This document shows, one piece after another, positions 38,904-45,030 of a stretch of 64,000 bases of DNA. The notes beneath the pieces are model-generated. The model saw only the letters and a list, made by a program, of their open reading frames with translations, made no database searches and was not told where the DNA came from. The position numbers and the translations under genes were made by a program. Source of the DNA: Cyanobacteriota bacterium (GTDB taxonomy: Bacteria > Acidobacteriota > Vicinamibacteria > Vicinamibacterales > UBA2999); contig JAIEMQ010000031.1 in NCBI GenBank assembly GCA_019752015.1, forward strand, positions 1 through 64,000, in the 5' to 3' direction. How positions within the stretch are numbered: the stretch's first letter is position 1; every line of letters begins with the position of its first letter.

Positions 38904-39575
38904 ATGCGCGTCCTGGTCGTCGAAGACGAAACAAAGGTCGCTTCGTTCATCCAGTCGGCCCTCGAACAGGAGGGCTACGCCGTTGATGTCCTGCCGGATG
39001 GAGACGATGCCGGCGCGCAGGCCGCCATCATCGACTACGACTGCGTCGTGCTCGATCTGATGCTGCCCGGGCGATCGGGCTTCCAGGTGCTGCGCGACAT
39101 TCGCGCGAAGAAGCCTGAGCTGCCGGTCATCATCCTCAGTGCGCAGGCCTCGGCTGAAGAGCGGGTCGCCGGCCTCAACGCCACTGCCGACGACTACATG
39201 GCCAAGCCGTTCGTGGTCGCCGAGTTGTCGGCGCGGATCCGCGCGTTGTTGCGCCGCGGCAAGCCGCGCGAAACGCGGCTGCGCGTCGGCGATCTCGAGA
39301 TCGACATGGTGCGGCGGCGGGTCACGCGCGGCGGCCGGAACATCGAGCTCAAGCCGAAGGAGTACGCGCTGCTCGAATTCCTCGCGCACCACATCGACCG
39401 GCCGATGACGCGCTCGCACATCATCGAGCACGTCTGGGACATCCACTTCGACAGCATCAGCAACGTCGTCGAGGTGCACATCAATTCGCTGCGCAACAAG
39501 ATCGACAAGGGCGCGGCGTCGCCGCTGATTCATACCGTCCGCGGCGTCGGCTACATGCTCACCGATCAACCGTGA
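38904..39575 (+). CDS. OmpR/PhoB-type response regulator
   Basis: 223 aa. The receiver has Asp51 in [10 protein letters not shown], the acidic pair (VVEDE), Thr/Ser-like ILSAQ and Lys in MAKPF. The winged-helix output domain ends [11 protein letters not shown]-like ([12 protein letters not shown]), so it binds DNA as a dimer on direct repeats. Its TGA overlaps the kinase start (GTGA), so the two are translationally coupled. It starts 60 nt from the divergent argG. Confidence 0.95.
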
Positions 39576-40969
39576 GGCCGCTGCCGCTGCGGACGACGCT
39601 GACGCTGCTGTATGCGGTGGTGCTGTCGGTGATCCTCACGGCGGTTGGCTGGGCGTATCACGCCGCCCTCAAGCGCCAGCTCGATAACTCGGTCACCGCG
39701 GATCTCGAGGGCAGGGCCCGAGCCCTGCACGGCTACCTGCGCTTCGATCATCACCGCGTCGCCCTCGCCTACGATGCCGGCGACGCCGACGAAGCGGCGT
39801 TCATTGTCGACGCGACGCGCTATTACCAGGTGTATGACGCGGCCACGGGACAGCTCCTGCACCAGTCGCCGGGACTCGAAGCGCTCGGCTTGAAATACAC
39901 CAGGACCGAGGTCGGCGAGTTTCGCGGTGCGGCCGGCATTCGCGACGTCCAAACGGATCGCGGCCGGCTGCGCCTCGATAGCACGGTGATCACGACTCCG
40001 GACGGCGGCGTCTATCTCGTGCAGGTCGGCACGCTCCTCGATCGGCTCGATGCGTCGCTGAGCGAGTTCGATCGCGTGCTGGCGATCCGGACGGCGTTTG
40101 GCGTGATCATCGCGGCCCTGATCGGGTTCGCGTTTTCAGGCCTGGCGCTCGGGCCGCTGCGGCGGCTGACCGGCGAGGCGACGGCGATCGACATCGCCAA
40201 CCTGCAGGCGCGGCTGCCGGTGCGCGGCGCCGGCGACGAGCTCGATCAACTGGCCCTTGCGTTCAACGACGCGCTCGCCAGGCTCGAGCGATCGGTCAAC
40301 GAGATGCGGCAGTTCAGCGCCGCCCTCGCGCACGAGCTGCGGACGCCGCTCGCGGTGCTGCGCGGGGAAGCCGAGCTCGCGATCGCGGCGTCGGCGCCAG
40401 CCGAGCGCGAGCGCCTCGCCAGCCAGATCGATGAGTACGACCGCCTGACTCGGTTGATCAACCAGATCCTGATGCTGGCGCGCGCCGAAGCCGGCGAGCT
40501 GTCGATGCAGCCGTCGCGCGTCGATCTGTCAGGCTTGGCTGCGCACGTCGCCGAGCAGGTCGAGCCGCTCGCCGATGCGAAGGAGATCGCGCTGGTGCGG
40601 GCGATCGATCCCGGCGTGCATGCCACGGTCGATGCCGGATGGATCGAACGGCTGCTCTTGATCCTCATCGACAACGCCATCAAGTTCACGCCTCCCGGCG
40701 GCCGGGTGACGATCGCGGTGGCCGGTGCGGGCAGCGGCGTCATTCTCGAGGTGGCGGATACAGGCATTGGCATCGCGGCGGACGCATGGCCGCAAATCTT
40801 CGACCCGTTCTACCGCGGCGATGCCACACACAGCCGCCGCAGCGACGGCGCGGGCATTGGATTGGCGCTCGCGAAATGGATTGCCGATCGGCACGGCGCG
40901 GCGATCGGCGTGACGAGCGCTCCTGATAATGGCAGCACGTTCACCGTGCGATTTCCGCCGGGTGATTAA
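39572..40969 (+). CDS. Membrane sensor histidine kinase (partner of the preceding regulator)
   Basis: 465 aa. Two membrane helices (residues 6-30 and about 170-190) enclose a periplasmic sensor of about 140 residues. HAMP follows ([14 protein letters not shown]), then HisKA with His in [16 protein letters not shown], and HATPase with [20 protein letters not shown] and [15 protein letters not shown] start at 39572. Related in layout to copper/antimicrobial-type sensors, but the signal is unknown. It precedes the acvB-like/mprF pair, so envelope charge or cationic-peptide stress is a reasonable guess (inference). Confidence 0.93.
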
Positions 40970-40986
40970 CAAAAGTTAATCACCCG
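40959..40986. other. Perfect 28-nt inverted repeat at the kinase stop codon
   Basis: CGGGTGATTAAC-aaaa-GTTAATCACCCG: 12-bp perfect arms with loop AAAA. It contains the kinase TAA, ends 30 nt before the acvB-like start and has no T run. It could be an attenuator, an RNA-stabilising hairpin or an operator for the lipid genes. Confidence 0.6.
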
Positions 40987-41016
40987 CTCATCCGCCGGTC
41001 AGGCGCAGCGGCCACC

Positions 41017-41799
41017 ATGAGGGTGCCGAGCGACGCCGTGACCAGGTTCCTGTTCTTACTTACTCTCATCGGACTGACGGCCGGCGCCGCCTCGGCACAA
41101 ACCATTGCGTCGATCTCGATTCGCGGCCGGGCCCAGGCGCTGCATCTCTACGGGCATCGCGGCACGCCGCCGGTGATCGTGTCGAGCGGCGACGGAGGAT
41201 GGCTGCACCTGGCGCCGCACGTCGCCGAAACGCTGGCCGCGCGCGGTTACTTCGTGGTTGGCTTCGATGTGAAGGCCTACCTGTCAGGCTTCACGACCGC
41301 GCGCGGCACACTCACTTCCGCCGACGTGCCCGGCGATTACCGCGCCCTCGTGGCGTTTGCAGCGGAGGGGTCGCCACAACGTCCCATCCTGATTGGCGTT
41401 TCCGAGGGCGCGGGGCTGTCGGTGCTCGCGGCGACTGAGACGACCATGCACCATCAGATCGCCGGCGTGCTTGGCTTCGGCCTCCCCGACGTCAACGAAC
41501 TGGGATGGCGCTGGAAGGACAGCCTGATCTACCTGACCCACGGAGTGCCCAACGAGCCGACGTTCAGCACGGCGGCGATCATCGGCGCGGCGGCGCCGCT
41601 GCCGATCGCGGCCATTCACTCCGACCGCGACGAGTTCGTGCCGGTGCCGGAGATACAACGCGTCATGGCCGCGGCGCATGATCCGAAACAGCTGTGGATC
41701 GTGAAGGCCGCCGATCATCGCTTCAGCAATAATCCGCGCGAATGCGATCGGCGCCTGTTCGAGGCGATCGAGTGGATTCACGCGCACGAGGTCCCTTGA
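41017..41799 (+). CDS. VirJ/AcvB-like periplasmic alpha/beta-hydrolase
   Basis: 260 aa with a signal peptide (FLFLLTLIGLTAGAASAQ). It carries the VirJ family opening VSSGDGGWLHLAPHVAETLAARGYFVVGFDV, nucleophile GVSEGAG (Ser), the acid region SDRDEFVP and HRFSNN with the likely His. In rhizobia and Agrobacterium the AcvB protein is a periplasmic lysyl-phosphatidylglycerol hydrolase encoded next to the synthase LpiA/MprF. Here the stop overlaps the mprF start by one base (TGATG), the same partnership. It has one VirJ domain where AcvB has about two, so it is half the length. Confidence 0.75.
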   Translation: MRVPSDAVTRFLFLLTLIGLTAGAASAQTIASISIRGRAQALHLYGHRGTPPVIVSSGDGGWLHLAPHVAETLAARGYFVVGFDVKAYLSGFTTARGTLTSADVPGDYRALVAFAAEGSPQRPILIGVSEGAGLSVLAATETTMHHQIAGVLGFGLPDVNELGWRWKDSLIYLTHGVPNEPTFSTAAIIGAAAPLPIAAIHSDRDEFVPVPEIQRVMAAAHDPKQLWIVKAADHRFSNNPRECDRRLFEAIEWIHAHEVP

Positions 41800-44315: not shown

Positions 44316-44320
44316 CGGCC

Positions 44321-44605
44321 ATGAGAGCGCGGCGGTTCGTTGCCGGTCTCCTCGTCCTGGCCGCGATCAGCGTGCCGGTGAGGGGACAGGACCAGACGCA
44401 CGCCACCCGCGGGATCGTCACGCGCGCGGATCCCTCGGCCATCGTCGTCGCGCGGCCGAAACACCGTGGCGACATCACCCTGACGCTGTCCCCGGCTACG
44501 CATGTCGACGGCACCATCACGGTCGGCGCCATGGTCTCGGTGCGCTATCACGACGACCATGGCCGGCATGTCGCCACCGCGGTATCGGTCGAGCGGCCGC
44601 ATTAA
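44321..44605 (+). CDS. Small secreted beta-barrel-like protein (paralogue of 44701-45030)
   Basis: 94 aa with a signal peptide (RRFVAGLLVLAAISVPVRGQ). The mature domain (TRGIVTRADPSAIVVARPKHRGDITLTL...ITVGAMVSVRYHDDHGRHVATAVSV) has the strand pattern of a small OB-like barrel (DUF5666-like). It starts 5 nt after mprF, so it is probably in the same transcript. Clearly related to the next gene: shared G-x-V..D...LVL, I..G.MV.V.Y and ATAV/ATSV. Role unknown. Confidence 0.65.
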   Translation: MRARRFVAGLLVLAAISVPVRGQDQTHATRGIVTRADPSAIVVARPKHRGDITLTLSPATHVDGTITVGAMVSVRYHDDHGRHVATAVSVERPH

Positions 44606-44700
44606 GAGGAATTAATGTCCAGCTCACGTTGGGTTGCTCTGCGAAGGATGTAATCGTCACCAGCGAGACGCGTTGGGGTCTCGACAAAGGAGTCTGAATC

Positions 44701-45030
44701 ATGCGCACATATCTTGCGGCGGCACTGGCGGCCGTCCTGCTGTTCAGCGGATCCGCCGTGACCTTCGCGGCCCAGGGATCGAAGGCGGCATCACATGCCA
44801 CGGCGACACATGCCACGGCGGACAGGATTGCCAGTGGCACCGTCAAGTCGATCGATGCCACCAAGCTCGTGCTGAAAACGCCACGGGGCGAGATGACGTT
44901 CTCGCTCGGATCGACAACGCCGGAAAACATCGCCACCGGTTCAATGGTCCAGGTCCACTATCGGGCCGAGGGCAAAGGCCGTCTCGCGACTTCCGTGATG
45001 CTGGACACCGCGGCGGCGGCAAAGAAGTAG
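44701..45030 (+). CDS. Small secreted beta-barrel-like protein (paralogue of 44321-44605)
   Basis: 109 aa with signal peptide MRTYLAAALAAVLLFSGSAVTFA and a low-complexity Ala/Thr/His linker (SHATATHATA). Mature domain SGTVKSIDATKLVLKTPRGEMTFSL...NIATGSMVQVHYRAEGKGRLATSVML. A good ribosome site (AAAGGAG, 44685-44691) lies eight bases before ATG. It ends the block that begins with the acvB-like gene, and a strong terminator follows. Unknown role, perhaps periplasmic. Confidence 0.7.
   Translation: MRTYLAAALAAVLLFSGSAVTFAAQGSKAASHATATHATADRIASGTVKSIDATKLVLKTPRGEMTFSLGSTTPENIATGSMVQVHYRAEGKGRLATSVMLDTAAAAKK

Follow-up and report, generated by a model that had tools for sequence, protein, structure and literature searches.

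Aminoacyl-phosphatidylglycerol (aminoacyl-PG) biology holds a puzzle in the simultaneous making and destroying of the same lipid. A locus in a 64,000-nucleotide stretch of the Acidobacteriota contig JAIEMQ010000031.1 (assembly GCA_019752015.1; the whole stretch is called the window here) raised the question of whether a synthase and an eraser of such a lipid share a sensor of their own. Six genes lay head to tail in the order response regulator (RR), sensor histidine kinase (HK), virJ, mprF, small gene A and small gene B, with a terminator after them. We read the locus as a module for lipid editing that is controlled by a local two-component system, and we regard this reading as likely. The module is real, it recurs, and it is probably functional.

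MprF-family proteins use aminoacyl-tRNA to attach an amino acid to phosphatidylglycerol, and they flip the product outward. The window MprF scored 858.6 bits against NCBIfam NF033480 (cut-off 600; aligned 10-829) and 286.7 bits against Pfam LPG_synthase_C, and the Pfam transmembrane model alone gave 30.6 bits, just below its cut-off of 33.4. It matched LpiA 6lvf and 7f47 over the full length. A survey of 297 genomes of the phylum gave 39 MprF matches, and 33 synthase-bearing loci were kept after 6 flippase-only matches were dropped. A VirJ-domain gene lay within 5 kb of at least 27 of the 33 loci; the loci of G167, G254, G230, G162, G188 and G211 had none within this distance. Counted by genome, a PF06057 match was present in at least 28 of the 32 synthase-bearing genomes and in 3 of the 265 others (p = 1e-31, kinship uncorrected). 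These searches scored at most 8, 3 or 10 candidates per genome, and the counts may be low. Pairing of VirJ with MprF is the rule in the phylum. The adjacency, which a preliminary description of this DNA had proposed to follow by a neighbourhood search outside proteobacteria, recurred widely, so that the refuting outcome named there, a lack of recurrence in relatives, did not arise, and the idea that it is peculiar to the window was rejected on the same counts. Two VirJ-domain hydrolases were seen around one mprF at L039, L040, L044, L045 and L047, and at L044 a single-domain hydrolase stood before mprF and a two-domain AcvB after it.

Within the family of the window genome (43 genomes), window-type hydrolases were called at E < 1e-40. 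They occurred in 7 genomes, and MprF occurred in the same 7 and in G327 (p = 2.5e-7). The two genes were adjacent in 7 of 7 genomes having both. The virJ-mprF pair is patchy and was moved or lost together within the family, because the other 8 genus members searched had neither gene; a place of MprF and the hydrolase in the genus core genome was rejected for this reason. An MprF-family gene was also found beside the hydrolase in 12 of 14 named relatives, a set found with the seed GVSEGAGL and therefore biased to the SEGAG subfamily. At L034, L035 and L112, divergent LPG-synthase-like proteins (~28% identity, C-terminal half only) were seen beside window-type hydrolases, and these may make a different aminoacyl lipid. 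At L037 (4470-6082), a window-type and a lipoprotein-type hydrolase stood in tandem with no MprF alongside; the MprF of that genome (G221:C67) lay on a separate contig with an AcvB-type gene.

Judged by its sequence, the window hydrolase is a member of a divergent single-domain VirJ subfamily (SEGAG). PF06057 (VirJ) gave 31.0 bits (cut-off 22), covering only profile positions 4-80 of 191. An HMM-HMM comparison matched it to canonical AcvB-type domains with 98.5% probability (E = 1.9e-15), and the profile match to AcvB 9xhm had E = 8e-18. In an alignment of 14 hydrolases picked by similarity and not by motif, G58, D59, S129, E130, G131, A132, D205 and H234 were invariant and S57 was kept in 13 of 14. 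Equivalents of AcvB Ser336/His433 and Ser269/Asp271 were present in this alignment as S129, H234, S57 and D59, and the invariant Glu (E130) directly followed the nucleophile S129. Glu161 aligned with AcvB Asp370 at a position that was acidic in 12 of 14, with moderate alignment confidence in this loop. The structure model gave an alpha/beta hydrolase (pLDDT 89.5) that was less certain in the loop 161-180, where the alignment puts the AcvB membrane loop. In structure searches with this model the matches were esterases of a general kind, and Foldseek ranked the Chloroflexus hydrolase 7qjm first; AcvB 9xhm and 9xhn were absent among the matches listed, which says nothing on membership.

D271, D340 and D370 of AcvB matter for the hydrolysis of lysyl-PG (Lys-PG), with Asp340 serving head-group recognition and required for full activity, and Asp370 assigned to the lysine side chain (PMC13197417). 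The window protein is likely an aminoacyl-lipid hydrolase, and aminoacyl-PG hydrolysis is predicted for it. The grade stays at likely because Ser, His and SGD are kept but Asp340 is lost and a Glu stands beside the nucleophile. We sorted the hydrolases into three kinds: type A, that of the window, with a SEGA elbow; type B, lipoprotein-like, with an SRG elbow; and type C, canonical, with SFGAD/E, SRGAD/E or SLGAD, as single-domain proteins or two-domain AcvB. A weaker relative in G187 carried SQGAG. The single VirJ domain had been put forward as distinctive, which did not hold, since Agrobacterium VirJ is single too and hydrolyses Lys-PG (PMC13135905).

The pair was connected with the sensor by a predicted operator of 27 bp, in which the half-sites TTAA, TTMATS and YTCAYS start at 0, 10 and 21. 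It was defined through a by-eye comparison of the regions ahead of virJ and ahead of the small genes. The window held the two exact sites of Table 1 and a third match at 25617 with 2 mismatches; 0 of 100 shuffles of the window gave as many as three hits when up to 2 mismatches were allowed. The two exact sites were the only ones in the 5.9-Mb genome. Across the family, exact sites occurred only in the window genome (G000, 2), G183 (1) and G328 (3), which are 3 of the 4 family genomes with an orthologous regulator (at least 72% identity), and the reversed control gave 0. Across the order (162 genomes), 14 exact sites were found in 11 genomes, compared with 1 for the reversed pattern. Nine of the 14 had not defined the pattern, and 7 of these 9 had a homologous two-component system no more than 4 kb away: G261 (RR 78%), G237 (RR 76%), G328:C493 (HK 58%) and G351, G354, G350 and G359 (RR 48-49%). 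The chance of 7 of 9 was ~4e-22 at the regulator density of the family and ~4e-15 at tenfold density, with kinship uncorrected. Moreover, 6 of the 9 had a gene for a small, secreted, barrel-like protein at a distance of up to ~2.6 kb (G261, G328:C493, G351, G354, G350 and G359); the gene of G261 alone matched the window small proteins (tblastn), and the other five were judged by eye and by mutual likeness. This co-occurrence across genomes suggested that the window regulator binds the predicted sites.

Some further observations concern the motif. The same operator motif also lay near a second two-component subfamily (RR 48-49%), which was seen at L191, L192, L193 and L194 with small barrel-like proteins of its own. 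On G328:C170 (L179 / L196), an exact site preceded a gene whose product is a ~370-residue lipoprotein without a Pfam match; the distance between site and gene is ~30 to 80 nt, according to the start codon chosen. A perfect 11-bp inverted repeat, GGGTGATTAAC-AAAA-GTTAATCACCC (40960-40985), straddled the kinase stop codon and overlapped operator 1 without a T tail. Inspection by eye of the regions preceding virJ in L105 and the small gene in L114 showed no such repeat.

RR orthologues with 72-79% identity were present in G183, G310 and G328 among the family genomes. The HK was 45-47% identical to the kinases of L105, L114, L189 and L190, and across these 5 kinases no invariant His, Cys or Met was present in the sensor domain. 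In the 8 MprF-bearing family genomes, a regulator was close by in G000, G183, G303, G307 and G327; the loci of G305 and G328 were cut by contig ends, and G191 had no close regulator. Two types of regulator were found. Type 1 (RR at least 72%) occurred in G000, G183 and L114, and type 2 (RR 46-47%) was found in G303, G307 and G327 alongside an HtrA-type protease; HtrA precedes virJ in G328 too. An OmpR-type regulator was present at 4 of the 14 named loci (L105, L106, L107 and L114), with several other loci cut short. L114 (SCUN01000043.1) carried, consecutively and on a single strand, the small gene, virJ, mprF, RR (72%) and HK (48%), and in G183 the system lay ~4 kb from virJ on the opposite strand. 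In at least three lineages, those of the window, G183 and L114, virJ-mprF was apparently brought under the window-type regulator. The sensor link suggested by the preliminary description was backed by the conserved predicted operator and by L114, which has the same gene kinds in another order. Separately, an HtrA-type PDZ protease preceded virJ-mprF in L072, L073 and L076 and mprF alone in L075, and in L072, L073 and L075 it was accompanied by a different two-component system.

Proteins A and B are related in sequence (33% identity). They scored 26.1 and 13.1 bits (E = 0.12 for B) against DUF5666 (PF18914), both under the cut-off of 27. Relatives of protein A were found in G183, G310 and G328, all with the orthologous regulator, and in L114. 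The model of protein B was a five-stranded barrel (pLDDT ~80-90 over residues 41-100; whole-model pTM 0.53), for which the comparison with CusF 1zeq gave Z 10.2 and rmsd 3.1 over 73 aligned residues. CusF/SilF filled the top five rows (Z 10.2-9.6), and other OB folds followed from 9.3, effectively tied; Foldseek reached E = 1.6e-3 at best. We therefore predict an OB barrel for protein B, with CusF as the nearest fold, a likeness that is suggestive because CusF/SilF hardly outscore other OB folds. Both had been called new small barrel proteins. The barrel stood for B as a prediction, and a new fold was not needed, as B is predicted to be CusF-like and A is its relative in sequence; the view that the small proteins necessarily have a new fold was rejected on the model of B, the one that was modelled. 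The small genes tracked the two-component system rather than mprF. The regulator and a small protein may form an older unit to which virJ-mprF was added, because G310 has a regulator orthologue and a small barrel gene with no MprF. The tie is not strict: G308 had a weak small-protein relative and no regulator that reached the cut-off applied.

A mechanism can be proposed from these data. MprF would aminoacylate phosphatidylglycerol and flip the product outward, and the secreted VirJ-type hydrolase would most likely strip the amino acid on the periplasmic side, using Ser129/His234 and probably Asp205. Making and removing would set a steady lipid level rather than an on/off state. The kinase and the OmpR-type regulator would most likely control both enzymes jointly, by activation or repression, via the three half-sites upstream of virJ, and the second operator copy would put the small OB-barrel protein B under the same regulator. 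By analogy with VisP/YgiW for QseBC, the small barrels would belong to the two-component module, probably as periplasmic accessory or stress proteins. The make-and-erase switch with its own sensor described before is therefore kept in its sensor link, through the operator and L114, and the switch itself is replaced by a presumed steady level. In a bolder form, one operator would let a dedicated envelope sensor govern both the making and the erasing of a charged lipid, a secreted CusF-like OB barrel would be its periplasmic partner, the hydrolase would be a new catalytic subtype with Glu in place of Asp340, and the whole would be a self-contained charge homeostat gained and lost as a unit by lineages of Acidobacteriota. 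We offer this form tentatively, as possible and still short of probable.

Several observations weigh against the module reading. No -10/-35 promoter match was found in the locus search, and only 24 nt separate the end of operator 1 from the ATG of virJ. Five of the 14 exact sites had themselves served to define the operator pattern (the two of the window, G183, G328:C131 and G383, which has the L114 sequence). G310, the fourth regulator genome, had no exact site and a one-mismatch site by eye only, and 2 of the other 9 sites, on G328:C170 (a 3.1-kb contig) and in G253, had no such system near. For the enzymes, lysyl- and alanyl-type synthases both match MprF and the scores give no amino-acid specificity; the AcvB Asp340 position is Gly133 in the window and Gly or Ala in 14 of 14 aligned hydrolases; and L113 and L118 had no MprF neighbour. 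Finally, the regulator orthologue was found without a nearby virJ-mprF in G261 and G237 and with neither gene in G310. The last result would fit a chance neighbourhood, in which a common lipid pair lies beside a common two-component system with no functional link. We consider this very improbable: OmpR-type regulators above cut-off are sparse (17 in 5.9 Mb, of which 0.04 would fall within 6 kb of the pair by chance), L114 has the same gene kinds, and the operator is shared.

The identity of the substrate and of the signal was weighed in the same way. Beside MprF, the hydrolase might not be of the AcvB Lys-PG type and might target another lipid ester, such as aminoacyl-diacylglycerol or another aminoacylated lipid, or a non-lysine amino acid. 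The lost Asp340 and the invariant Glu after the nucleophile point this way, as does the presence of the subfamily beside the short divergent synthases mentioned above. However, the subfamily most often adjoins full-length MprF, the hydrolase keeps Asp271, and Glu161 aligns with Asp370, the lysine side-chain residue (PMC13197417), and we judge this possibility to be unlikely. It is less likely still that the two-component system is a copper/silver-type metal sensor with CusF-like chaperones, to which virJ-mprF is adjacent and transcribed by read-through. Heavy-metal families did top the NCBIfam results for RR and HK, and the predicted fold of protein B is most like CusF. Yet RR and HK both stayed under the family cut-offs (RR, TIGR01387, 229.5 vs 279.2 bits; HK, cztS_silS_copS TIGR01386, 263.3 vs 292.55 bits). 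In a sequence alignment, the five small proteins had one invariant His in common and no shared Met/Trp set like that of the Cu(I)/Ag(I) ligands of CusF. Directly ahead of virJ, the window and G183 both had an exact operator, and in G183 the system itself is at a distance on the other strand.

The arrangement of the genes is summarized in Table 1. The position of the hydrolase before mprF and the adjoining two-component system, as first described, were borne out in the sequence. The RR stop and the HK start share GTGA (39572-39575), the hydrolase stop and the mprF start share TGATG (41797-41801), and the gaps are 5 nt from mprF to small gene A and 95 nt from small gene A to small gene B. The hydrolase may start at ATG 41017 or at GTG 41038, the GTG being a by-eye choice prompted by homologues, whose signal peptides are shorter. 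Six terminator-like sites were found in the window against 3.7 expected in shuffles, and the site after small gene B was the sole one with 9 G-C pairs. A single unit with a strong terminator had been proposed. The overlaps, the 5-nt gap and the terminator agree with it, but a single unit is too simple because predicted operators precede virJ and small gene B and a 95-nt gap lies between the small genes.

Table 1. Coordinates of the genes and predicted sites of the locus, in positions of the window
Feature	Position	Strand	Basis
OmpR/PhoB-type response regulator (RR)	38904..39575	+	Pfam Response_reg + Trans_reg_C
Sensor histidine kinase (HK), GTG start overlapping RR stop	39572..40969	+	HAMP, HisKA, HATPase_c
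Predicted operator 1, TTAA-N6-TTMATS-N5-YTCAYS, upstream of virJ	40966..40992	+	exact pattern match
Secreted single-domain VirJ-type serine hydrolase (SEGAG subfamily)	41017..41799	+	PF06057 above cut-off
MprF/LpiA, aminoacyl-PG flippase and synthase	41799..44315	+	NF033480 above cut-off
Small secreted protein A, DUF5666-like	44321..44605	+	PF18914 26.1 bits, cut-off 27
Predicted operator 2, upstream of small protein B	44602..44628	+	exact pattern match
Small secreted protein B, with a predicted CusF-like OB barrel	44701..45030	+	structure model
Intrinsic terminator	45054..45078	+	9 G-C pairs, loop 7, then T8

The locus brings a synthase, an eraser, a sensor and predicted operators together within 6.2 kb, so that lipid level, signal and regulation become testable in one transferable cassette. 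The operator motif offers a direct handle on the signal of the sensor in a phylum with few genetic tools, and the SEGAG subfamily could show which acidic residues fix substrate choice in AcvB-type hydrolases. The component parts, the make-and-remove principle and the two-component control of such a pair are already known, because LpiA/AcvB, the PhoP-controlled PA0920/PA0919 and QseBC/VisP are precedents. As far as a search of PMC papers shows, the SEGAG subfamily, the physical union with a sensor and the operator are new; no account of this module was found there, in agreement with the earlier remark that it is undescribed in Acidobacteriota, and the precedent of PhoP and ppgS-ppgH is in Pseudomonas.

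The closest known system was LpiA/AcvB of Agrobacterium tumefaciens, which likewise has an MprF-type synthase/flippase and a periplasmic alpha/beta hydrolase with Ser, His and SGD in one operon. In contrast, the window hydrolase is single-domain, stands before mprF, lacks Asp340 and has Glu at the position after the nucleophile, and its locus also includes genes for small barrel proteins and for an adjoining two-component system. The VirJ encoded by the octopine Ti plasmid is also a single-domain periplasmic Lys-PG hydrolase; however, its gene is on that plasmid, whereas lpiA goes with acvB, and the protein is close to the AcvB C-domain (46% identity), from which the window hydrolase is remote (PMC13135905). 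In Pseudomonas aeruginosa, PhoP directly controls ppgS-ppgH (PA0920-PA0919), a synthase/hydrolase pair under the OmpR-family system PhoPQ, as proposed for the window; this pair differs in that it concerns alanyl-PG, and the available part of the source mentions neither adjoining sensor genes nor CusF-like small genes (PMC7916210). QseBC with VisP/YgiW resembles the locus in joining a two-component system to an adjacent small periplasmic OB-fold protein in envelope stress (PMC5636140), but VisP/YgiW is of the BOF type, whereas the window small proteins are DUF5666/CusF-like, and the lipid target differs. CusF/SilF shares the predicted fold of protein B (Z 9.6-10.2). It differs from the window proteins in that no conserved metal-ligand set was seen in these, other OB folds score nearly equal, and lipid genes are linked to the barrels of the window.

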